Part shown: positions 7,744-21,066 of the stretch, in pieces
Position numbering within the stretch: the stretch's first letter is position 1
How the letters are laid out: the number at the start of each line of letters is the position of its first letter
DNA from: Ruminococcus sp.
GTDB lineage: Bacteria; Bacillota; Clostridia; Oscillospirales; Ruminococcaceae
DNA length: 35,677 nucleotides
Assembly (NCBI GenBank): GCA_014799675.1
Contig: JAAVHM010000032.1
Coordinates: 1 to 35,677, forward strand
Direction: 5' to 3'
Notes under the pieces: generated by a model
Seen by the model: only the letters and a program-made list of their open reading frames with translations
The model's database searches: none
Told to the model about the DNA's origin: nothing
Translations under genes and position numbers: made by a program

Positions 7744-10143
7744 TTATACTCCGTAAACCTTTCTTGCAACGTCAACCGTGTCCTTTGCGTCCTTTGCGTA
7801 GAAATCCGCGCCGATTTTTTCCGCATATTCGGGTGTGAGAACGGCTCCCCCTACCACAATTTTACAGGGGACGTTGTTGTCATGGAGAAGCTTTACAGTT
7901 TCTTCCATTGAAGCAAGGGTGGTTGTCATCAGCGCGGAAAGTCCCACAAGCTTTACCTCGTGCTTGACGGCGGCTTCAAGGACGTTTTCGGGGGGAACGT
8001 CCCTGCCGAGGTCGATAACGTCGAAGCCGTAATTTTCCAAAAGAACCTTGACAATGTTCTTGCCGATGTCGTGAATGTCGCCTTTTACCGTGGCAAGCAC
8101 CACCTTGCCCTTGCTGACGGACTCGCCGCCGCTTTGCGCCATGTGAGTTTTTATCACGTCAAACGCCGCCTGTGCAACGCTTGCCGCCATGATAAGCTGT
8201 GGCAGGAAAATTTTCCCGCTTTCAAATTCCGCCCCCGCTTTGTCAAGGGCGGGAATAAGCAGATTGTCAACAATTTCCATACTGTCCATAGTTTTAAGCA
8301 ATTCCTCGGTAATTCGTGCGCCCTCGTCCTTTAAACCGTTTGCGATTGCCGACGGCAGGTCGTTCCCCTCGGATTTTGGGGCGGAAGCCGCGCCTGTACT
8401 GCTTACGGAGGTTGTAAAATTGCTTCCCGAATATGCGGCAATGAATTCTGTGGAATTTTTGTCAATATTTGTTAGAAGCTTATACGCCCGCACCGCGCCT
8501 GTCATAAGGGCGGCGTTGGGGTTGATTATGGGCAGGTCGAGACCGTTTGTCAGCGCCATTTGCAGGAAATTGCAGTTCACAAGCTCACGGTTGGGAAGTC
8601 CAAAGGAAATATTTGACACACCGAGGACGGTTTTGAGCCCCAGTTCCGTTTTAACACGGTGAAGCGCATTGACCGTCTCCATGACCGCCGCCTGCTCCGC
8701 GGAAGCCGTCAGCGTGAGGCAGTCAATGAAAACGTCCCGCTTGGGAATGCCCGTTTTTTCGGCGTTTGCAAGGATTTTTTCCGCAATTTCAAAACGTCCC
8801 TCTGCGGTTTTGGGAATTCCTCCCTCGTCAAGGGCAAGTCCCACAACAGCCGCGCCGTACTTTTTCACAAGGGGCAAAATTGCCTCCATGGAAGCCTTTT
8901 CGCCGTTTACCGAGTTGACGATAGGCTTGCCGTTGTAAACCCGCAAAGCCGCTTCCAGAACGTCGGGACGGGTCGAGTCCAGCTGCAAGGGCAAGTCCGT
9001 TACGCCCTGCAAAGCCTTGACAACTTTTACCATCATTTCCTTTTCATCAATGTCGGGCAAGCCAACGTTTACGTCAAGAATGTCCGCGCCCGCGTTTATC
9101 TGCTCGATTGCTTGACCAAGAATGTAGCCGATGTCCTCCGACTTCAAAGCCTCCTTGAAACGCTTTTTGCCCGTTGGATTGATACGCTCGCCGATAATTC
9201 TCGGCTGGTCGATAACCACGGTCTTTGCGGGACTGCACACCGCCGCTTCAAGCTTCGGGGTCTGCCGGACGTACTTCATATCTTTGAGACGGCTCACAAC
9301 CGAGCGTATGAAATCGGGAGTTGTTCCGCAGCAGCCGCCTGCTATTTTTACGCCGTATTTGACAAGATTTGCCATGCTTTCCGCAAAATCTTCGGGGGTA
9401 ACGTCGTACTTGTTGGTGATTGGGTCGGGAAGTCCCGCGTTGGGCTTGACCGCAAGGGGCAGGGTGGTCCATTTGGAAAATTCAGCCACAACAGGTTCAA
9501 GCTCCTTCGGTCCGAGAGAACAGTTCACGCCGATAGCGTCAACGCCCAGACCCTCCATGGTAAGAGCCATTGCGGACACCGAACAGCCTGTGAACGTCCG
9601 CATATTCTGCTCAAAGGTCATAGTGGTTATTATTGGCAGATCGCTGTTTTCCTTTGCCGCAAGGACAGCCGCTTTCAGTTCGTAAAGGTCGGTCATGGTC
9701 TCACAGGCGATAAAGTCAGCGCCCGCGTTTACGGCGGCAACGACTTGCTCCTTGAAAATTTCGTATGCTTCCTCAAAGGTCAGTCCCCCCGTGGGTTCAA
9801 GAAGCTGACCTATGGGACCCATGTCAAGGGCGACCAAAGCCTTGTCCCCGCAGGCTTTTTTAGCAATTCCCACAGCCGCCGAGATTATTTCCGCAACACT
9901 TTTTCCTGTCTTTGCCATTTTGTAACGGTTACAGCCGAAAGTGTTTGCACAAACGATTTGCGAACCCGCGTCCACATAGGCGGAATGTATTTCCTCTATC
10001 CAATCGGGCTTGTCAAAGTTGAGCATTTCGGGAATTCCGCCCATTTCCATGCCTTTTGCCTGAAGCATTGTACCCATTGCGCCGTCCCAGAAAACGAACT
10101 CGTTATCCGCCAGAAGCTTGTAAAACTTTTCCTTTTTATTCAT
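7744..10143 (-). CDS. metH: Cobalamin-dependent methionine synthase without the reactivation domain
   Basis: 799 aa: homocysteine S-methyltransferase (WDGAMGTMLQAKGM, GGCCGT), pterin-binding (IGERINPTG) and B12-binding (GDIHDIGKNIVKVLL) signatures. Confidence 0.96.
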   Translation of the reverse strand: MNKKEKFYKLLADNEFVFWDGAMGTMLQAKGMEMGGIPEMLNFDKPDWIEEIHSAYVDAGSQIVCANTFGCNRYKMAKTGKSVAEIISAAVGIAKKACGDKALVALDMGPIGQLLEPTGGLTFEEAYEIFKEQVVAAVNAGADFIACETMTDLYELKAAVLAAKENSDLPIITTMTFEQNMRTFTGCSVSAMALTMEGLGVDAIGVNCSLGPKELEPVVAEFSKWTTLPLAVKPNAGLPDPITNKYDVTPEDFAESMANLVKYGVKIAGGCCGTTPDFIRSVVSRLKDMKYVRQTPKLEAAVCSPAKTVVIDQPRIIGERINPTGKKRFKEALKSEDIGYILGQAIEQINAGADILDVNVGLPDIDEKEMMVKVVKALQGVTDLPLQLDSTRPDVLEAALRVYNGKPIVNSVNGEKASMEAILPLVKKYGAAVVGLALDEGGIPKTAEGRFEIAEKILANAEKTGIPKRDVFIDCLTLTASAEQAAVMETVNALHRVKTELGLKTVLGVSNISFGLPNRELVNCNFLQMALTNGLDLPIINPNAALMTGAVRAYKLLTNIDKNSTEFIAAYSGSNFTTSVSSTGAASAPKSEGNDLPSAIANGLKDEGARITEELLKTMDSMEIVDNLLIPALDKAGAEFESGKIFLPQLIMAASVAQAAFDVIKTHMAQSGGESVSKGKVVLATVKGDIHDIGKNIVKVLLENYGFDVIDLGRDVPPENVLEAAVKHEVKLVGLSALMTTTLASMEETVKLLHDNNVPCKIVVGGAVLTPEYAEKIGADFYAKDAKDTVDVARKVYGV

Positions 10144-10168: not shown

Positions 10169-10237
10169 TGTAGGGGCGAATCCTGTATTCGCCCGAAAAT
10201 CTATCCATCTCGGGCGGATATGGAATCCGCCCCTACA
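10169..10237. repeat. Palindromic REP/MITE-like element, copy 1
   Basis: TGTAGGGGCGAATCCTGTATTCGCCCG...CGGGCGGATATGGAATCCGCCCCTACA; terminal inverted repeats with two inner hairpins; related to 20692-20768. Confidence 0.85.
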
Positions 10238-10909
10238 TCAACAGCAATGTTCCCCGTTCTTTCTGAAATTGCATTTTTCACGAATTGCACAAGTCCCGCA
10301 GCCGCGGCGTTTTTGGGGGACGGGCTTTTCCGAAATTCCAATAACTGCCGTAACCGATTTTGTTGGGGTAAGCAAGCCGCCGTCCGTCACGCACACGCCA
10401 ACGGTTCGCATGGCATTCACCGCCGCAAGGAAGTCCCCCTGACATTCAAGGGGGAAATCGCCGTACCCGGGGGAGAACCGCCATGTGGTAAATTTTTCCG
10501 CAAACCGTTCCCCTATCTCCTTTTCGGCAATATCGCAGACCTGCTCCACCGCCGCGGAAGCCATAGCGTCGGCAGTGAGAGCCTTTGCCATATCCTCCGC
10601 CTGCACCGTTCGGAGAAGCTTGTCAACGCCGTCGCCGAGGGTCGCGCACAAAAGAACCGCCCCGAAACAGCCGTCCAAGTGGGCGGAAATGTCCCTGCCC
10701 CGCAGGACAAGCTTGTGTCCCGCAAGAGTAACAGTTTCCTCGGAAATGTCCGCAATATCGGCGTATATCCAATGGAATTTCGGATTTGCCGCACTCAAAA
10801 GGCGGCTTTCGCACTCGTCCGCCAGCACAGAAATATTTTCGGGAGGTTCTCCCCGCAGACCCATGTACCGAAAGGCTTCGGCACGGTTTATTTTCGTTAA
10901 TTCTATCAT
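10238..10909 (-). CDS. Stand-alone methionine synthase activation-domain protein
   Basis: 223 aa with RFSPGYGDFPLECQ, a hallmark of the MetH activation domain; adjacent to metH; C-terminal Cys cluster CGTCAIREKCNFRKNGEHCC. Confidence 0.88.
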   Translation of the reverse strand: MIELTKINRAEAFRYMGLRGEPPENISVLADECESRLLSAANPKFHWIYADIADISEETVTLAGHKLVLRGRDISAHLDGCFGAVLLCATLGDGVDKLLRTVQAEDMAKALTADAMASAAVEQVCDIAEKEIGERFAEKFTTWRFSPGYGDFPLECQGDFLAAVNAMRTVGVCVTDGGLLTPTKSVTAVIGISEKPVPQKRRGCGTCAIREKCNFRKNGEHCC

Positions 10910-10954
10910 AGTTAAATCCTTTTATTTGGTTTGGAAATTTATTCAATATGGTCT

Positions 10955-11401
10955 TTATACCTTAAATAATGGTGAGTTTATTTTATCTGTTATTGCTTTG
11001 CTGTAAAATTCCAAAAAATCTTTCTTTTCCCATCCTTTGCCGACCCAGAATTTTTTCCCTTGCTCATTTGTTTTCATTACATTTAGACAAACCCTTGTAA
11101 TGCCCTCTTTCTGCAATGCTTCAACAGCCGCTTCCACTAAAGCTGTTGCAATTCCCCTGCCTCTGTATTCGGGCAAAACAACGGTATGATAAATATATCC
11201 CCTCCTGCCGTCATGTCCGCACAAAATTGCTCCTATTAATTTCTCATCTTCATATGCAACAAAATTCGTGTCAGGATTTCGTTTCAGAAAGCAAGAAATT
11301 CCCTCTTTGGAATCGTCTAAACTGCGCAGACCCATATTAGGTGTATTTTTCCACATTGCAAAAAGATTTTCATAGTCGCTTATTGTCATTACTTTTATCA
11401 T
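10955..11401 (-). CDS. GNAT family N-acetyltransferase
   Basis: 148 aa; HTVVLPEYRGRGIATALVEAAVEAL...NVMKTNEQGKKFWVGKGW. Confidence 0.92.
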   Translation of the reverse strand: MIKVMTISDYENLFAMWKNTPNMGLRSLDDSKEGISCFLKRNPDTNFVAYEDEKLIGAILCGHDGRRGYIYHTVVLPEYRGRGIATALVEAAVEALQKEGITRVCLNVMKTNEQGKKFWVGKGWEKKDFLEFYSKAITDKINSPLFKV

Positions 11402-11423
11402 ATCAAAACCTCAAAATTTTTAT

Positions 11424-11870
11424 TTAAATAATGTCTTTTATCTTGCCGATAACATATTCTGCCCTGCTTTCCAGTTCGGGAAGAGCATTTAGTGGGAAAA
11501 ATTGCAGACAGCGGCTCTCGTCGTCATTTATCCGCAATTCTCCCGACACGCCCACCGCCTTGTACAGAACAATTACAGTATAGGTCTCGTCGCCGTTGGG
11601 GTAACGGAAAAACAGTTCCCCGCCCGACAATACGTCAAGCAGTTCAAAGCGTTCCGCTTTCAGTCCCGCTTCTTCCCATAATTCGCGGGCGGCGGTTTCC
11701 TCAAGACTTTCGCCAAGCTCCATGCCTCCGCCGATAATACCCCATGTATCGGTGTCACTCCGCAAATTCAGGAGTATTTCATTTTTATCATTCAGTACAA
11801 TAATTGTTGCGCCGATATTTATTATCGGCTGATGTCCGATATATTTCCGCAGTTCCGATATGTAGCTCAT
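11424..11870 (-). CDS. NUDIX hydrolase
   Basis: 148 aa; Nudix box GGGMELGESLEETAARELWEEAGL. Confidence 0.93.
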   Translation of the reverse strand: MSYISELRKYIGHQPIINIGATIIVLNDKNEILLNLRSDTDTWGIIGGGMELGESLEETAARELWEEAGLKAERFELLDVLSGGELFFRYPNGDETYTVIVLYKAVGVSGELRINDDESRCLQFFPLNALPELESRAEYVIGKIKDII

Positions 11871-11887
11871 AGTGTCCTCCTTATATG

Positions 11888-12409
11888 CTACAGCACTTTT
11901 TCAAGAAATAAATGTCCGTCATGCTCTATAACTCCGCCAACTTTCATGGAAGCTTCCGCAGCAATTTCAAAGCCTAATTTTTTATAGAGCGACACCGCGG
12001 GAACGTTCTGGCTTCCAGTATCAAGGCGCAGCACTTTGCATGAATTATTTTTCGCCAATTCAACAGCATATTTAACAAGAGCAGAAGCAATTCCTTTCCC
12101 CGCCATGCTCGGACGTACTAAAAGTAAATGAATAACGCATACTTCGTCGTCCGAAAAATCATGTCCCCAAGCAATTCCCGAATATTCTTTCGGCTGAATT
12201 TTATCAACAATTATGCTTCCCGCTATAGCGTTATTTTCTTCATACACATATAACGCGCCGTTTTGAACGGCTTTTACCGCGTCGTTTTTGGTGGGATATA
12301 CGCCTCTTTTGAATACTGTAAACGCCCCGTGTTCGGCTTCATATTTGAAATGCTCGTTGTATGTGTCCTCGACCTGTTCAATGTCGGCAAGGGTTGCTTT
12401 TCTTATCAT
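11888..12409 (-). CDS. GNAT family N-acetyltransferase
   Basis: 173 aa; LLVRPSMAGKGIASALVKYAVELAKN...NVPAVSLYKKLGFE. Confidence 0.92.
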   Translation of the reverse strand: MIRKATLADIEQVEDTYNEHFKYEAEHGAFTVFKRGVYPTKNDAVKAVQNGALYVYEENNAIAGSIIVDKIQPKEYSGIAWGHDFSDDEVCVIHLLLVRPSMAGKGIASALVKYAVELAKNNSCKVLRLDTGSQNVPAVSLYKKLGFEIAAEASMKVGGVIEHDGHLFLEKVL

Positions 12410-12431
12410 AACTATACCTTTTCAAATCACG

Positions 12432-13226
12432 TTATTTTCTGAATATGTCAAGCGAATGGCTTGTAATTCCCAACAAATCCTCCCGTTCGCAAGTTGCAAA
12501 ATGATACTTCAAAAACAATTCAAAGGTATCGTTATCCATATTATCTACTGCATCACGTATAAGCCGCGCGCAGCCGTCGGTCGCGACATAGTGCAGACGT
12601 GTTACGGGAAATGCCGACATAAGGTTGTCAATATCCTCCTTGCGGACAAGCTCGAACAAGTCCTTGGGTTCGGACGTTGCGGCAAATGTAACAGGGTCAA
12701 GCAGTCCGTTTTTAATGTAGTCGGCAACGCTGAACCCGCCCAGTCTGAAGCCCTCGTCAATAAGACTTCCGTCGGAAATAACATACGCGGCAAAAACGAT
12801 ACCGCCCGGCTTCGTCACGCGAATTGCCTCGCTCAAAGCCTGCCGCTTGTCCTCGTCATTGTAAAGATGATACAGCGGACCCAACAGCAGCGTGATGTCG
12901 TACTGATTATCGGGGAAAGCCGACAAGTCCAAAGCGTTGCCCTGGGTAACGGTTATTTTTTCATCGGGCAGGGTGTTTTTGCGGAAAACCTCAATGTTAT
13001 GCTCCACCAGCTCCACTGCGTCAACAGTATAGCCCTGCCGTGCCAGCGTGTGGGAATACCGTCCCGTTGCCGCGCCTATTTCAAGCACACGGTCGCCCTG
13101 ACGTATGTATTTTTCGATATACCGCATAGTTGTGAGAAACTCCACCGTTCCGTGCTTTAAGGTTGACAGACGGCTGTCCTCGTCGTAAGAACTGTAGAAA
13201 TCTATCAAATACTGATTTGTTTCCAT
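12432..13226 (-). CDS. Class I SAM-dependent methyltransferase, tandem paralog A
   Basis: 264 aa; VLEIGAATGRYSHTLARQGYTVDAVELVEHNIE; near-identical in long stretches to 13253-14044. Confidence 0.92.
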   Translation of the reverse strand: METNQYLIDFYSSYDEDSRLSTLKHGTVEFLTTMRYIEKYIRQGDRVLEIGAATGRYSHTLARQGYTVDAVELVEHNIEVFRKNTLPDEKITVTQGNALDLSAFPDNQYDITLLLGPLYHLYNDEDKRQALSEAIRVTKPGGIVFAAYVISDGSLIDEGFRLGGFSVADYIKNGLLDPVTFAATSEPKDLFELVRKEDIDNLMSAFPVTRLHYVATDGCARLIRDAVDNMDNDTFELFLKYHFATCEREDLLGITSHSLDIFRK

Positions 13227-13252
13227 AATGTGCCTCCTTAGTAAATTTCCAT

Positions 13253-14044
13253 TTATTTTCTGAATATGTCAAGCGAATGTGTTGTAATTCCCAACAAATC
13301 CTCCCGTTCGCAAGTTGCAAAATGATACCTCAAATACAAGTCAAATGTATCGTTGTCCATGTTATCTATTGCGTCATTCAAAATCGGAGCGCAGCCGTCG
13401 GTTGCAACATAGTGCAGTCGGGTCGTGGGAAACGCCGTCATAAGCTTGTCAATTTTCTCCTTGCGGACAAGCTCGAACAAGTCCTTGGGTTCTGACGTTG
13501 TCTCAAATGTGACAGGGTCAAGCGACCCGTTTTTAATGTAATCGGCAACGCTGTGTTTTCCCTGACGGAAATCATTGAAAAGACAGCCGTCAGATATAAC
13601 ATATGCGGCAAAAATAATACCGCCCTGCTTTGTCACACGAATTGCCTCGCTCAAAGCCTGCCGCTTGTCCTCGTCATTATAAAGATGATACAGCGGACCC
13701 AACAGCAGCGTGATGTCGTACTGATTATCGGGGAAAGCCGACAAATCCAAAGCGTTGCCCTGGATAACGGTTATTTTTTCGTCGGGCAGGGTGTTCTTGC
13801 GGAAAACCTCAATGTTATGCTCCACCAGCTCCACCGCGTCAACAGTGTAGCCCTGCCGTGCCAGCGTGTGGGAATACCGTCCCGTTGCCGCGCCTATTTC
13901 AAGCACACGGTCGCCCTGACGTATGTATTTTTCGATATACCGCATAGTTGTGAGGAACTCCACCGTTCCGTGCTTTGAATCCGCCAGACGGCTGTCCTCG
14001 TCGATAGAATTGTAGAAGTCTATCACGTACTGATTTGTTTCCAT
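13253..14044 (-). CDS. Class I SAM-dependent methyltransferase, tandem paralog B
   Basis: 263 aa; same motifs as the neighbouring paralog. Confidence 0.92.
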   Translation of the reverse strand: METNQYVIDFYNSIDEDSRLADSKHGTVEFLTTMRYIEKYIRQGDRVLEIGAATGRYSHTLARQGYTVDAVELVEHNIEVFRKNTLPDEKITVIQGNALDLSAFPDNQYDITLLLGPLYHLYNDEDKRQALSEAIRVTKQGGIIFAAYVISDGCLFNDFRQGKHSVADYIKNGSLDPVTFETTSEPKDLFELVRKEKIDKLMTAFPTTRLHYVATDGCAPILNDAIDNMDNDTFDLYLRYHFATCEREDLLGITTHSLDIFRK

Positions 14045-14070
14045 AATGTACCTCCTAAGAAATTATAATA

Positions 14071-14099
14071 ATTATATCATTATAATGTGTAATTTTCAA
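14071..14099 (-). promoter_or_regulatory. Sigma-A-type promoter upstream of methyltransferase paralog B
   Basis: Minus strand TTGAAA-17 nt-TATAAT. Confidence 0.65.
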
Positions 14100-14121
14100 C
14101 TGTTTTCCTATACTCTATGAA

Positions 14122-14676
14122 TTATTTAAAATCGTCTCTGATATAACCGTAAATATTATAAGTGCAGTATCTGCTTCCCATTTTTCCGTTCCTGATACAG
14201 CCCTCGTGTGTAAAACCGCATTTTTTCAGGACAGCGTTTGACGCGGCATTCTCTATGTCAGCCTCTGCGTTCAGCCTGTCTATTTGGGTTTCCGAAAAAA
14301 TGAACTTTGTGACGCGCTTTAAAGCTTCGGTGCAAATACCTTTGTTCCAGAAATCAGGGTCTAATCTGTAGCCCACATTGCCAAGCCTGTCATTTTCCAC
14401 GTCAAAAACTTCTATCATTCCAATTACCTTGCCGTTTTCCTTGTTTACGATACCCCATATAAAATCGTGAGAGGGCTTGCGCTTAACGTGCGGGCGCGGG
14501 TCGATAAACAAAAGCTCTGGATTTTTTTCTCCCTTGCCTGCGGGACGTCCCCAATATTTGTAAACAATATCCAGTCCAAACCATTTGCGCAGGTCGTCGG
14601 CGTCGTTCGCCGTCAGCTTCCTGAGAAAAAGCCTCTCAGTTTCAAGCGTTGGTATCCACAAACATTCTCTAATCAT
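14122..14676 (-). CDS. RimJ/RimL-type GNAT acetyltransferase
   Basis: 184 aa; LETERLFLRKLTANDADDLRKWFG...GNVGYRLDPDFWNKGICTEALKRVTKFIF. Confidence 0.92.
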   Translation of the reverse strand: MIRECLWIPTLETERLFLRKLTANDADDLRKWFGLDIVYKYWGRPAGKGEKNPELLFIDPRPHVKRKPSHDFIWGIVNKENGKVIGMIEVFDVENDRLGNVGYRLDPDFWNKGICTEALKRVTKFIFSETQIDRLNAEADIENAASNAVLKKCGFTHEGCIRNGKMGSRYCTYNIYGYIRDDFK

Positions 14677-14701
14677 AAAGCTTTCCTCCTAATTTTATCT
14701 C

Positions 14702-15196
14702 TCACCTAAGCTCTTTATAATACGGACAAATATCCTCATAATGCCCGTCCTTCATTCGGAAGCCCTTGGGGATAGTCCCCAACTGCGTAAACCCAAGACG
14801 CTCGTAAAGATTTCTTGCGTGGGTGTTGGTTGCCACAACCGCATTGAATTGAAGCACCCTGAACCCGCACCGTTTTCCCTGAACAAGACAGTCCTCCACA
14901 AGCTTTCTGCCGATATGATAGCCGCGGAAGCCCTTTTTCACCGCATAGCTTGCGTTGCAGATATGACCGCACCGTCCCACATTGTTTGGGTGGAGAATGT
15001 ACAGACCCAGAACCTCCTGCCTGTCAATATCGAAAGCAACTCCGCAGTAGCTCTGCTCCCTGAAAAAGTTTGCGCCCGTGACCTCGTTCAGAAGCTCCTC
15101 CTGCGGGAAAGCTATGCCCTCCTCTACGATCTCGTTCCAGATCTCTATCATTTCGGGCAGATATTTTCCTATGTAAGTTCTTATTTCGATTTGCAT
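14702..15196 (-). CDS. GNAT family N-acetyltransferase
   Basis: 164 aa; YAVKKGFRGYHIGRKLVEDCLVQGKRCGFRVLQFNAVVATNTHARNLYERLGF. Confidence 0.92.
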   Translation of the reverse strand: MQIEIRTYIGKYLPEMIEIWNEIVEEGIAFPQEELLNEVTGANFFREQSYCGVAFDIDRQEVLGLYILHPNNVGRCGHICNASYAVKKGFRGYHIGRKLVEDCLVQGKRCGFRVLQFNAVVATNTHARNLYERLGFTQLGTIPKGFRMKDGHYEDICPYYKELR

Positions 15197-15226
15197 AAAT
15201 GTTTCCTCCTGTTATTTCATTAATTT

Positions 15227-15838
15227 TCAATCTTTAAACTCAAATATTTTTGTAAATTTCAATCCTGTTATGTTGTTTTCTTCAATGAAATCTTTAAATT
15301 CATCATCACAATACCAATCTATAAACATACGACTTTTACCATTGTTATACATTAATCTGAAAAGATGATGTCCCTTAGTTTTTTCCAAAAAGACATAACG
15401 GCGAATTTTATATATTCCTTTACTTTTATCGTCGGAAAGATATTTGATTTCTGTATTTTCCATATCAAGATAGTCCGATAATTCAAGGTAAACAAGTGGT
15501 ATTATTATGTAATATTTTTCGTTTGGCAAATCCTCTAAAATTATAGAAAAGAAACGGAACAATTCACTATACTTGTTTTCAATCAAGCACTTGGATTTTT
15601 CGTTCACAAGCATTGTTACGTCACCTTTCATTATATCAGCAGGACGCAGTTTTCGGTATCCTCTTCTGCCCTTGTCTTTATTATAAAAAACAGTTTTTTC
15701 GGGCAATATTTCAGATAGTTTATCTTCATCTTCATTTGAGAACAGCGTTATAAAATCTAAGCTGTCGATTTTCTCAGTAGCCTTAAAAATGCACCACCAA
15801 TAATTGTTTACATCAGGATATGCATGCCATATGTTCAT
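15227..15838 (-). CDS. Hypothetical protein
   Basis: 203 aa ORF overlapping the upstream gene by 4 nt (ATGA). Confidence 0.75.
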   Translation of the reverse strand: MNIWHAYPDVNNYWWCIFKATEKIDSLDFITLFSNEDEDKLSEILPEKTVFYNKDKGRRGYRKLRPADIMKGDVTMLVNEKSKCLIENKYSELFRFFSIILEDLPNEKYYIIIPLVYLELSDYLDMENTEIKYLSDDKSKGIYKIRRYVFLEKTKGHHLFRLMYNNGKSRMFIDWYCDDEFKDFIEENNITGLKFTKIFEFKD

Positions 15839-16299
15839 AAAACGTCCTCCTTACAGCTTCGCTCGGAAAGATATTTTTTTATTTCCCCCGCAGTCAGTTT
15901 CCTGACCTCGGTGTTAGGATACTCTTTGTACTCCCCCACCTCAAACAGCGGGGTCATTTTTTCGCAGGACTTGTCCGTATTCTTTTTCAAAAAAGCGTTC
16001 AAATCGGAAATATCCGCAAAAATCTTGTAAGACTTCCTGCCGCCTTTGCCTGTTATTTCGTATATCCCGCAGGACTTTTTCATTGTAAAGTCCGCCGTCC
16101 GCAGATAAAGCATTGCAGTTTCAAGAGACTTGAACGGGAAATTCCACCTCTGCAAGCCTCGGACTTTATCCCTCTCAATGCAGATACACCTGCCGCAAGT
16201 CCCGCATATATACTGGGTGTGGTTTTTAAGGCAGTCCTCCGCTTTCAGTAAAGGGGTTATCCTGCTTTTTTCCGAATAACATTCGGGACACATTTTCAT
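15835..16299 (-). CDS. Zinc-ribbon-like hypothetical protein
   Basis: 154 aa; CPEC...CGTCGRCIC cysteine pattern; 4-nt ATGA overlap with the upstream methyltransferase gene. Confidence 0.75.
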   Translation of the reverse strand: MKMCPECYSEKSRITPLLKAEDCLKNHTQYICGTCGRCICIERDKVRGLQRWNFPFKSLETAMLYLRTADFTMKKSCGIYEITGKGGRKSYKIFADISDLNAFLKKNTDKSCEKMTPLFEVGEYKEYPNTEVRKLTAGEIKKYLSERSCKEDVL

Positions 16300-16907
16300 A
16301 CACCTCTTTGCTTTTTCCGCAATTTCTTTGACAATTTATTTACAGGCTTTTCCTTTTTCTGTAACCTTTCCCCGCGCTTTTCCGAAATAAAAACATAGTA
16401 CCCGTCAATTTCCCGTACCCTTACCCCGCCGAAAACGGAGGTAAGCTTGTTCCTGTACCAGTCAAGGCGTTTGGTAACCATAACCATTTTTCCGCCAACA
16501 GCCAATTTTTTGAAACCCACCTCAATAAAACGCTTCGGCACGGAAAAATCCGCATGATACGGCGGGTTTGACAGTATCAAGGTGAAGCCGTTGTCCTGTA
16601 TTTCGGAAAAACCGTCGCTTATTTTAATTTCTATGTTCGGCACGCCGTTCAGCTCCGCGTTGATTTTCGCCTGCTTCACGGCGGCTTCGGAAATATCGCA
16701 CATGGCAACATTTTCCTGACCTATCAGCTTTGCCGCAAGAATTCCCACAACGCCGTATCCGCAGCCCATGTCCAACACTTTATCGCTCGGTAAAAAATCC
16801 ACAGCGGACAGCATAGCCAACGTCCCAACGTCAATGTTATTGGGAGAAAAGTTGGACGGGTCTGTTTCAAACTTCAGGCTCACATTTTTTATTTCTGCTG
16901 AAATCAT
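16296..16907 (-). CDS. RsmC-like class I methyltransferase
   Basis: 203 aa; VLDMGCGYGVVGILAAKL and NPPYH motifs. Confidence 0.9.
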   Translation of the reverse strand: MISAEIKNVSLKFETDPSNFSPNNIDVGTLAMLSAVDFLPSDKVLDMGCGYGVVGILAAKLIGQENVAMCDISEAAVKQAKINAELNGVPNIEIKISDGFSEIQDNGFTLILSNPPYHADFSVPKRFIEVGFKKLAVGGKMVMVTKRLDWYRNKLTSVFGGVRVREIDGYYVFISEKRGERLQKKEKPVNKLSKKLRKKQRGV

Positions 16908-16938
16908 TTTATCCTTTTCCCTCCGAAAGCGTGTATTC

Positions 16939-17499
16939 CTACATAGGTCTTAAATTTTTATCGAGCCTGTCCACTATCCATGCGAGACGCTTTTCACGTC
17001 CCGCGTCTGTCTTTGCGTCAAAATATGCCCGCGTATAAGTTTTCTTCACCGATAAGGGCATGGCTTGAAAATTTGTGAAAGCAGGTTCGTACTTTTTCAA
17101 AAGCTCGGATAAACAGGCAATATGCTCCTCCGTAAGCAACATAAGGTCGGGAGCGTCCCATTGACCGTTCTTTTTGGCTTCCTCTATTTTCTTTCTGCCG
17201 TGGTCGGTCATAAGACCACGTTCTTCAAGGCTTTGAACCAGCTTCTTGTTTTTATCCGACCACTTGCTTTTCTCCCTGCGGGCGGAAAAATATTTCTTAT
17301 AGGTCTTATCGTCAAGACTTTGCATCTGTCCGTCTATCCAACCAAAGCAGAGAGCTTCTTCAAGGGCTTCCGCCGCTTTTATTGTTTTCGTGCCTCCCGC
17401 TTTGCCGAACAAAAGCCACACGCCCTCGCTTGTCAGGCAGTTATCGTTAAGCCATTTCCTGAATTCTTCTCTGTTTGCAAACTTTATTGTATCGCTCAT
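16939..17499 (-). CDS. YdeI/OmpD-associated family protein
   Basis: 186 aa; EFRKWLNDNCLTSEGVWLLFGK...EALEEALCFGWIDGQMQSLDDKTYKKYFSARREKSKWSDKN. Confidence 0.88.
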   Translation of the reverse strand: MSDTIKFANREEFRKWLNDNCLTSEGVWLLFGKAGGTKTIKAAEALEEALCFGWIDGQMQSLDDKTYKKYFSARREKSKWSDKNKKLVQSLEERGLMTDHGRKKIEEAKKNGQWDAPDLMLLTEEHIACLSELLKKYEPAFTNFQAMPLSVKKTYTRAYFDAKTDAGREKRLAWIVDRLDKNLRPM

Positions 17500-17538
17500 T
17501 ATGTGCTCTCCTTTAGTTGTATTAAAAAATATGGTTTT

Positions 17539-18060
17539 TTAATATCTATAACCATCAGGTATTCTGATATATGCCCGTATATGTTCATCTATCGGTCTAT
17601 GCAGAACTCTTGATATATTATCATTAAAAGTATTTCCCTCCGCTGTGACGATCTCGCCCTCTTTGACCTCCAAAACAATACCTATGTGATCATGCTCCTG
17701 ACCAATAAAAACCCGATCAAAAAGAACAATATCTCCTGCTTCCGGAAGAAAAGCCTCATCAGGCTTATGATACTCTATCCGACTGTCTCCAATCGCGTAT
17801 TCTTCCCAAGCGATACAACCTGCTAAGTGGCACGTAACACATTCATTCGGTCTATACGGAATTACAAATCCTGCCTCAACGCAGCAATAATAAACAAATG
17901 CTGCACACCATAATTTATCCGCATCTCTTAAGTTCCATTTGGGAAAATATTTGATGATCGGGGCAATGTTTGATTCCTTGCCCTCAATATATCCATGGAA
18001 AGGCTTTTGCGCTTTTTCCCTTGCAATCGCTGCCAACTTTTGTCTTGTTGCGTTTTCCAT
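17539..18060 (-). CDS. CHAP/NlpC-like cysteine peptidase or amidase domain protein
   Basis: WCAAFVYYCCVEAGF...AGDIVLFDR...DHIGIVLEVKEGEIVTAEGNT; start chosen at MENATRQK with GGAGG RBS (ORF track start 18120). Confidence 0.82.
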   Translation of the reverse strand: MENATRQKLAAIAREKAQKPFHGYIEGKESNIAPIIKYFPKWNLRDADKLWCAAFVYYCCVEAGFVIPYRPNECVTCHLAGCIAWEEYAIGDSRIEYHKPDEAFLPEAGDIVLFDRVFIGQEHDHIGIVLEVKEGEIVTAEGNTFNDNISRVLHRPIDEHIRAYIRIPDGYRY

Positions 18061-18157
18061 AACTTCCTCCATTAAGTTCCGATTTATTATTCTGCGCTCA
18101 TCAGCACATTTTTCACACAACGTCTTTAAGCCTCCTATAAATTTTGATATAGCCGAT

Positions 18158-18721
18158 CTATAACAGTTCCAATAATTTCTCCATATTCTCCCTGTGCGGA
18201 ATAATAATTTCTATATCCACTTCGGGGTGAACTTTCACGTAAGCCGTAAGCATATCCATTAAATTATCCTTAGACTTCATATAATCGTCAATGATAACCT
18301 CATCACTGAAACCGAGCCGTTTCAGAATGACAGCCGACACCACGCCTGTGCGGTCTTTTCCCGCCGTGCAGAAATACATTACGTTGGACTTCGCGTTCAT
18401 TATAGTATCAATAACTTTCTCCATTTGCCCGTCAAGCATCTGCCGATAAACCGTATACAGATGTTCACGGGATTTCGGAGTACCGCCCCCGCCCGTAACG
18501 GGAAGATGAAAATAGCTGAAACCGTCCCGCTGTTTAAGACCGCAGGGCTTTGCCGCGACCTCCTCGTCGGAACGCAGGTCAACTATCGTAGTTATATTAT
18601 TATCCAAAAGCCACCGTACTTCCGTATCTGTCAGGTTCTCGGGAAAGTCGCTTCTGAAATATCGGTTTGTACCTGTGGGCAGTACGCGTGTGTTTCTTGT
18701 GGATTGCAGTAAAGAACTCAT
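18158..18721 (-). CDS. Tyrosine-protein phosphatase (Y_phosphatase3-like)
   Basis: 187 aa; signature FCTAGKDRTGVVSAVIL. Confidence 0.92.
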   Translation of the reverse strand: MSSLLQSTRNTRVLPTGTNRYFRSDFPENLTDTEVRWLLDNNITTIVDLRSDEEVAAKPCGLKQRDGFSYFHLPVTGGGGTPKSREHLYTVYRQMLDGQMEKVIDTIMNAKSNVMYFCTAGKDRTGVVSAVILKRLGFSDEVIIDDYMKSKDNLMDMLTAYVKVHPEVDIEIIIPHRENMEKLLELL

Positions 18722-18775
18722 ACAAACGGTCTCCTTTCAAATTACTGTTTATATATTTGTTCACAGTTTGATTGA

Positions 18776-19252
18776 TCAACCCCTTGAAACAAAATGTTTC
18801 ATCGGCTCATTCAGATGATATATTTCTTCTTTCAGAAATTCGGGATATATAGTCACCTTTTGAATTTCTTCGACAGGCAGCCACCCAATAACAACATTGC
18901 TGTTATCTTTATGGGGCAAAAATTCATCTTTATCCGGAATAACAGCTCCTTCACACAAATTGATCAAATAATAAAAGCAAATATTATGCGCTCTCTTTCC
19001 GTTCCATTCCCAAAAACACTCTTCCGTCCATAATAAGCGTTCACATTTTACATCTGCGCCGGTTTCTTCTTTGTACTCACGAACAAGCGCTTCCTCTGTG
19101 GTTTCTCCTATTTTGACATGCCCGCCCGGTATCGCATATTCGCTTCCGTTTTTATCTCTTTGAACTGCAATTTTATTGTTTTTAATTAGTATTCCTGCGG
19201 CTCTCAAATCACAGATATATTCGTCACTTGTAAATAACCAGTCTTTGTTCAT
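18776..19252 (-). CDS. NUDIX hydrolase
   Basis: Nudix box GGHVKIGETTEEALVREYKEETGAD; start at MNKDW preferred (ORF track start 19267). Confidence 0.92.
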   Translation of the reverse strand: MNKDWLFTSDEYICDLRAAGILIKNNKIAVQRDKNGSEYAIPGGHVKIGETTEEALVREYKEETGADVKCERLLWTEECFWEWNGKRAHNICFYYLINLCEGAVIPDKDEFLPHKDNSNVVIGWLPVEEIQKVTIYPEFLKEEIYHLNEPMKHFVSRG

Positions 19253-19318
19253 AACATTCTCTCCCATAGCTTAAAATTTTCTCAAAGCGCGTCCTTAACT
19301 CTTTCATTTGTAAAATTC

Positions 19319-19702
19319 CTAATATGTTTCCATTTGCCCGCATAGCATATTATAAAACCCAAATCGCTCATAAAACGGCTTCAAGCCTTCTTCATAAACC
19401 ACTGAAATCATGTAGATACGCTTTTCCTTCAGATATTCAAGCATTTTATCCATAAGCTCTGTGCCGATCCCTTTGCCTTGGTAAGCCGGACAAACCATCA
19501 GATCCTGAATATAAGCGTCTGTTACCCCATTTGATACACTATCAATATATCCAATCAGTTTATCATCTTCATAAACTGCAATATGGTAATAAGATGTCAT
19601 CAAGGGGTTTGTATACTCTCTTTCCATTCTGTTCCAGCCAACCGACTCACGCAGATCCGCCAATGCTTCTACAGACACTTTTTCGTTGAATTTGTATATC
19701 AC
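19319..19702 (-). CDS. GNAT family N-acetyltransferase
   Basis: 127 aa; IQDLMVCPAYQGKGIGTELMDKMLEYL; GTG start with AGGAGG-type RBS. Confidence 0.92.
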   Translation of the reverse strand: MIYKFNEKVSVEALADLRESVGWNRMEREYTNPLMTSYYHIAVYEDDKLIGYIDSVSNGVTDAYIQDLMVCPAYQGKGIGTELMDKMLEYLKEKRIYMISVVYEEGLKPFYERFGFYNMLCGQMETY

Positions 19703-19724
19703 TATGTTTTTCCTCCTCGTTGTT

Positions 19725-19805
19725 CCCCTCCCCCTTGATAGGGGCTTGATAAACGATAGAATTTCCGTATCTTACCATATGGCAGAACACGCCCGCAGGG
19801 GCTTC
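19725..19805. repeat. Intergenic structured repeat, possibly related to 22310-22371
   Basis: CCTTGATAGGGGCT-N18-CCGTAT...ACC...GG.AGAACA; ungapped correspondence of anchors and spacing with the second copy. Confidence 0.45.
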
Positions 19806-19810
19806 CCCGC

Positions 19811-20671
19811 TTACAAAAGCGACTTAACGCTCTCGCTTATCTTCCTCGCAACATACGGATTATTCATAGTGTACAGATGTATGCCGTCCACACTGCTTGA
19901 AATAAGGTCAACGATCTGGTCAACGGCGTAGGCAATTCCCGCGTCGCGGAGAGCCTCGGGATTATTTTCATATTTCTGCATCATTTTGGAAAATTTCGCA
20001 GGCAGACTTGCCCCGCACATGGAAACCATACGCTCGATCTGCTTTTTGTTTGTAACAGGCATGATACCCGCCTCCACGGGGACGGTCACACCCGCAATGG
20101 CAAGCATTTCACGGTACTTGTGGAAAGCGGCGTTGTCAAAGAAAAGCTGGGACATAAGGTGCTCCGCCCCCGCTTCTATCTTGATTTTCAGATTGTTGAT
20201 GTCCTCGGAGAAGCTTTTCGCCTCCATATGACACTCGGGATAGCAAGCCCCCGACACGTGGAAATCGCCGTTTTCCTTGATAAATCGGGTCAGGTCGCTT
20301 GCGTACTCAAAATCATGGAGACGGGGTATTTCGGGGTTCACGTCCCCACGCAGGGCGAGAATATTTTCAATGCCGCGCTCCTTGAACTGACCGAGGATAG
20401 TCCGAACGCTTTCCTTTGTGCTGTAAACGCAGGTAAGGTGCGCCGCCGAGGGAATTCCCAGCTCGTTCTGAATATAAGCGGCAATGTCGCAGGTCTTGGT
20501 GTCCGAGGCGTTTCCCCCCGCGCCGTAAGTCACGCTGATAAAATCGGGGGAAAGGTCTTTCAACTCCGCAAGAGTGCTGTATATCGTTTCAATTGAACTT
20601 GTCTTTTTCGGCGGAAAAACCTCAAATGACAGGACAGTCCTGCCGCCTTTAAAAAGTGATGATAGTTTTAT
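19811..20671 (-). CDS. metF: Methylenetetrahydrofolate reductase with non-canonical start codon (ATA or ATT)
   Basis: LSFEVFPPKKTSSIETIYSTLAELKDLSPDFISVTYGAGG...AHLTC...ILALRGD. The frame is open to a TAG at 20686-20684 with no ATG/GTG/TTG near the N-terminus; AGGAGG lies 5 nt before ATT and 8 nt before ATA. The ORF track begins at an internal TTG (20563), inside the conserved domain. Confidence 0.85.
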   Translation of the reverse strand: MKLSSLFKGGRTVLSFEVFPPKKTSSIETIYSTLAELKDLSPDFISVTYGAGGNASDTKTCDIAAYIQNELGIPSAAHLTCVYSTKESVRTILGQFKERGIENILALRGDVNPEIPRLHDFEYASDLTRFIKENGDFHVSGACYPECHMEAKSFSEDINNLKIKIEAGAEHLMSQLFFDNAAFHKYREMLAIAGVTVPVEAGIMPVTNKKQIERMVSMCGASLPAKFSKMMQKYENNPEALRDAGIAYAVDQIVDLISSSVDGIHLYTMNNPYVARKISESVKSLL

Positions 20672-20691
20672 AATTTTATCCTCCTATTTTT

Positions 20692-20768
20692 TGTAGGGGC
20701 GGATTCCTTATTCGCTCGTTATTTTCCAATAATTTGTGCGGCGGGCGGATAAAGAATCCGCCCCTACA
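20692..20768. repeat. Palindromic REP/MITE-like element, copy 2
   Basis: TGTAGGGGCGGATTCCTTATTCGCTCG...GGCGGGCGGATAAAGAATCCGCCCCTACA; same termini as 10169-10237. Confidence 0.85.
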
Positions 20769-21066
20769 GGTTTTCAAGATTATGGCGTAAATCGTCAATT
20801 TCCCTTTGCAGTTTTAAAATTTCCGACATAACATTTTGTTCGGTCTTTATGCGTAATTCCTCGGCAAGCTTTTTTTCTGCCAAATAAAGGTATTTGTCCA
20901 TAACGGCAATGATCTCCGCATCGGTCATATCGGAGGTTATTTCGGCGTTGTCCAGTTTCATAAGAGCCGCCGCACGGTATTTCAACGACTCTATCTCGTC
21001 AATTATTTCCGCCGTTTCGGGCGGAATTTTTGTATGCACTTTTTTGGCTTTTTTCTTTCCGCCCAT
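20764..21066 (-). CDS. Small coiled-coil hypothetical protein
   Basis: 100 aa, Lys-rich N-terminus; stop codon TAG lies inside the palindromic element. Confidence 0.65.
   Translation of the reverse strand: MGGKKKAKKVHTKIPPETAEIIDEIESLKYRAAALMKLDNAEITSDMTDAEIIAVMDKYLYLAEKKLAEELRIKTEQNVMSEILKLQREIDDLRHNLENL

Follow-up and report, generated by a model that had tools for sequence, protein, structure and literature searches.

The metF gene in this Ruminococcus sp. DNA raises the question of where translation begins in a gene without a conventional codon at its start, and of whether the codon found there is a conserved feature, a recent change or an error. The window analysed, 35,677 nt of contig JAAVHM010000032.1, carries metF on its minus strand (19811–20671; 286 codons counted from an ATA). 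The product scored 328.6 bits against the methylenetetrahydrofolate reductase (MTHFR) model TIGR00676, above the curated cut-off of 293.7, and also matched Pfam MTHFR and solved relatives. Its FEVFPPK segment aligned to FEFFPPK of the Thermus MTHFR, with the FE(F/V)FPP motif present, the Glu of which is catalytically essential (PMC9900621, PMC3156243). With the protein read from ATA, homologs aligned from its first residue, which ruled out a chance open frame and bore out the N-terminal MetF layout proposed in a preliminary description of the sequence.

Candidate start codons of metF

The minus strand at 20690–20560 reads TAG GAG GAT AAA ATT ATA AAA CTA TCA TCA, as previously described. The in-frame TAG (20686–20684) closes the frame upstream and overlaps the Shine-Dalgarno sequence AGGAGG (20680–20685), which is followed by ATAAA and then by an ATT codon (20672–20674) at a spacing of 5 nt and the ATA codon (20669–20671) at 8 nt; from the TAG, the frame runs without a stop down to the stop at 19811. 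The claimed absence of a conventional start was confirmed, with no ATG, GTG or TTG in the metF frame before the TTG at 20563–20561. Initiation at this TTG would, as also claimed, remove FEVFPPK, which lies upstream of that codon, and with it the catalytic Glu, which is retained solely with a start at ATA, ATT or a CTG at 20632–20630. Scanning for terminators and promoters near the start yielded nothing useful on the metF strand, and comparison of the start region with viral contigs gave no match.

Between ATA and ATT, both of which had been proposed as the start, the evidence pointed to ATA. ATT is the less likely start because the ATA codon stands where relatives have their ATG, at equal spacing, and ATT one codon before it. 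In addition, translation of rsbW start variants in Listeria monocytogenes followed the order ATG > ATA > ATT (PMC13068326). Both ATT and CTG are near-cognate and in frame, and the CTG, which would retain FEVFPPK, has an AGGA 5 nt upstream; however, it lies within a predicted hairpin and its use would drop conserved N-terminal residues. With the relatives' ATG at the ATA codon, translation of metF from CTG or ATT instead of ATA is extremely improbable.

Start codon in relatives and history of the change

Among the 21 genomes searched in the genus, 18 (this one included) had metF. The nearest relative, Ruminococcus sp. isolate Mgla_MAG_ref_172 (JAAVHL010000036.1; G001:C113, with L002 and L020 denoting the same locus), hereafter the sister, has a MetF of 98% protein identity and reads AGGAGGATAAAATT ATG AAACTATCA, vs. 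AGGAGGATAAAATT ATA AAACTATCA in the window, the Shine-Dalgarno sequence and spacer (AGGAGGATAAAATT) being identical. The start place was also ATG in the other genus homologs found (fetched loci, one of which ends at a contig end), and more distant homologs had ATG, GTG or TTG there or immediately beside it. Four distant loci showed ATA, TTA or ATT at the projected start place, which we attribute to alignment offset, since a methionine codon follows directly. The metF ATA was found in one assembly only. Because the sister has ATG behind an identical Shine-Dalgarno sequence and spacer, and other genus members have ATG, the ATA is not a conserved feature, as an infC-like non-AUG start would be, and is best described as one G-to-A change in one lineage or one assembly. 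The simplest history would be a single transition from ATG to ATA on the window's branch. Restoration of the frame by a nearby indel was rejected, as the alignment to the nearest relative is gapless across Shine-Dalgarno sequence, spacer and start, and metF contains no indel. The earlier suggestion of a deliberately weak or fidelity-sensitive start has no conservation behind it, the comparison of orthologs having shown that ATA is not kept even in the sister; a recent mutation or an assembly error, the other options then named, are those left.

It is possible but not probable that the A arose by an error of sequencing or assembly, or that a minority strain set the consensus, in a population that carries ATG. 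The ATA differs from the sister by a single base and occurs in one fragmented draft (78.67% complete, 175 contigs), and AUA was not among the switches listed for 61,358 ancestral AUG starts in a study that probably relies on annotated starts (PMC5622118). The window, however, contains no ambiguous bases, metF is otherwise free of indels and stops, and the sampled genome shows no excess of broken starts. In a comparison of approximately 740 kb of this genome with approximately 1.03 Mb from the sister, ATG mapped to ATG at 95 starts and metF was the only clean ATG-to-ATA pair; other odd pairs either were without a conserved Shine-Dalgarno sequence or had a usable start nearby, and look like misplaced starts. 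Neither a general error pattern nor an overall shift in start use is therefore visible, and genome-wide relaxed start use was rejected for the sampled parts. A stricter DNA comparison of starts between the two genomes comprised 26–30 pairs only, and in the internal-stop search for disrupted genes antisense frames yield false stops. Many scattered single N letters, which may originate from assembly or masking, occurred in most fetched stretches of this genome and none in the window.

The region upstream of metF gave information on the order of events. A palindromic repeat element (20692–20768; 27-nt arms, 89% complementary), predicted as a strong hairpin (z = −5.5), lies between metF and an upstream 100-aa ORF (20764–21066, minus strand) with no family match. 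In the three relatives L003, L004 and L005 the element is absent and the TGA of the upstream ORF overlaps the metF ATG (ATGA), a type of overlap associated with translational coupling (PMC6728339). In the window and the sister, the element stands in the same place and supplies the upstream ORF with its TAG stop, leaving a gap of 92 nt to metF. Since both the element and ATG are present in the sister, the element is older than the ATA; the comparison gives this order and does not show a causal link from element to ATA. Half-site matches to the element numbered 112 in this genome, 85 in G008 and, in the sister, 6 (0 with a control pattern); they were only 1–7 in three close relatives other than G008. 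This has the look of a small repeat element that has expanded. Members of this family (TGTAGGGGCGGATTC...) occur in the window at 20692–20768 and at about 10169–10237. The 100-aa ORF adjoins metF in the close relatives G001, G008, G009 and G012, and in three its stop overlaps the metF ATG. Upstream of the metF neighbour, L004 (G012:C98) contains a stretch that matches the region in reverse orientation, apparently an assembly artefact of the inverted-end type.

Probable AUA initiation in the genus and published cases

In E. coli, the non-AUG start of infC, encoding IF3, is autoregulatory. The comparison with infC made in the preliminary description proved apt, as the genus itself has ATA at this gene: the start position read ATA in 21 of 22 copies and ATT in one (tblastn; loci L220–L241), with ATA in both copies of this genome. 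We infer that this site is the infC start because it is homologous to the AUU/AUA start known for infC. In GGGGGTGCTTACC ATA AGC and similar copies, a G-rich Shine-Dalgarno sequence stands 8 nt from the ATA, the spacing seen in metF, where AGGAGG likewise provides a strong Shine-Dalgarno sequence at normal distance. Predicted anti-Shine-Dalgarno pairing was approximately −10 kcal/mol for metF vs. −12 to −13 kcal/mol for infC. The two genes differ in that ATA or ATT is kept across the genus in infC, whereas the metF ATA occurs in one genome. Because 21 of 22 infC copies carry ATA, this organism should be capable of initiating at AUA, and by analogy metF is probably still translated from AUA, at a weak level that is sensitive to IF3. 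Most genus infC copies also contain an in-frame GTG within the Shine-Dalgarno sequence, which would mislead annotation. The two infC copies of this genome (L233 and L239; G000:C9 and G000:C23) have different upstream sequences, which may reflect true duplication or mixed strains.

The earlier statement that AUA and AUU starts are very rare holds as to rarity, but switches from ATG to ATA are on record (PMC13068326, PMC12864459, PMC13009471). As in metF, a one-base ATG-to-ATA change left the rest of Listeria rsbW intact, and it is present in two natural strains too; rsbW, however, is a stress regulator overlapping rsbV and its variants came from acid challenge, whereas metF is metabolic and without known selection (PMC13068326). 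In Staphylococcus aureus, the AUA starts of citZ, ccpN and cvfC1 gave approximately 10%, and up to 30%, of AUG (PMC13009471). The citZ AUA, restricted to the NCTC 8325 lineage, resembles the metF case in affecting a central metabolic gene of one lineage in the Bacillota, although its level of approximately 10% of AUG was obtained with reporters and metF is known from sequence alone (PMC13009471). The spontaneous ATG-to-ATA change in rpoS of E. coli O104:H4 left the protein present at up to 5-fold lower levels; unlike metF, it arose during laboratory cultivation, in another phylum and another gene (PMC12864459). The same paper quotes ATA as reaching up to 1% of ATG (PMC12864459).

Taken with these cases, it is fairly probable that the change is real and that a normal, retained metF is weakly translated from AUA, with MetF under-produced and not absent. 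The ATG would have been lost in this lineage through a single G-to-A transition, with the coding sequence intact and constrained. AGGAGG would position ribosomes, and initiation by fMet-tRNA at AUA would continue at a reduced rate, which by the published cases could be of the order of 1–30% of AUG. This initiation would be IF3-sensitive, as for infC.

The codon and spacing that metF shares with the genus infC, and the response of the ccpN AUA to medium in S. aureus (PMC13009471), would also fit a selected regulatory AUA, by which MetF levels are held down and made dependent on IF3 or growth state, in the manner of infC or ccpN. A conserved regulatory AUA was rejected, given the ATG of the sister and of the other genus members found; a selected one is very unlikely, given that even the sister species does not share the ATA and that selection has no evidence behind it. 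Equally doubtful is a more elaborate scheme in which, after the repeat element parted metF from the overlapping upstream gene, AUA became fixed and placed the flow of one-carbon units into methionine under the influence of IF3 and growth state, making metF a second IF3-sensitive gene beside infC.

Retention of metF and consequences of the change

Weak use of AUA in a retained gene agrees with the conservation of the coding sequence. Between window and sister, metF had an NG86 dN/dS of 0.064 without indel or stop, and values among near relatives were 0.04–0.07. With two outgroups, 9 metF substitutions were placed on the window branch, 3 of which, in 2 codons, were non-synonymous (L149M, G260S). 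As the majority may be older than the change at the start, they show retention of metF along most of the branch and not that it is kept now. No second intact metF was found in this draft genome, the copy in the window being the only one found.

An ATA that abolishes useful expression would place metF at the onset of pseudogene decay, with methionine or methyl-folate taken from the surroundings. The weakened start codon and the earlier loss of the overlap with the upstream ORF to the repeat element fit such a course, and metF could already be non-functional if the ATA arose too recently for decay to show. We nevertheless regard it as unlikely, given the intact and constrained coding sequence, the retained strong Shine-Dalgarno sequence, the probable use of AUA by the genus infC and the presence in the same window of an intact metH-like gene for B12-dependent methionine synthase (7744–10143, minus strand). 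The window also encodes a metH activation-domain-like protein (10238–10909) scoring under the Pfam gathering score. Its gene and metF are close in several relatives and approximately 9 kb apart here (10238–20671), with acetyltransferase, NUDIX, phosphatase and methyltransferase genes in between.

Overall, metF is an ordinary gene in which a single base of the start codon differs, in one lineage or assembly, with the relatives' ATG behind an equal Shine-Dalgarno sequence and the gene otherwise intact, and it belongs to the sporadic kind of ATG-to-ATA switch that is already known. It changes nothing in what is known on initiation. Gene finders limited to ATG, GTG and TTG would truncate metF at the TTG at 20563, losing the catalytic Glu, and mis-annotation of the same sort is to be expected for infC in the genus, where the starts read ATA. 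If real, the change would be a further natural case of an ATG-to-ATA switch in a metabolic gene that has been retained.
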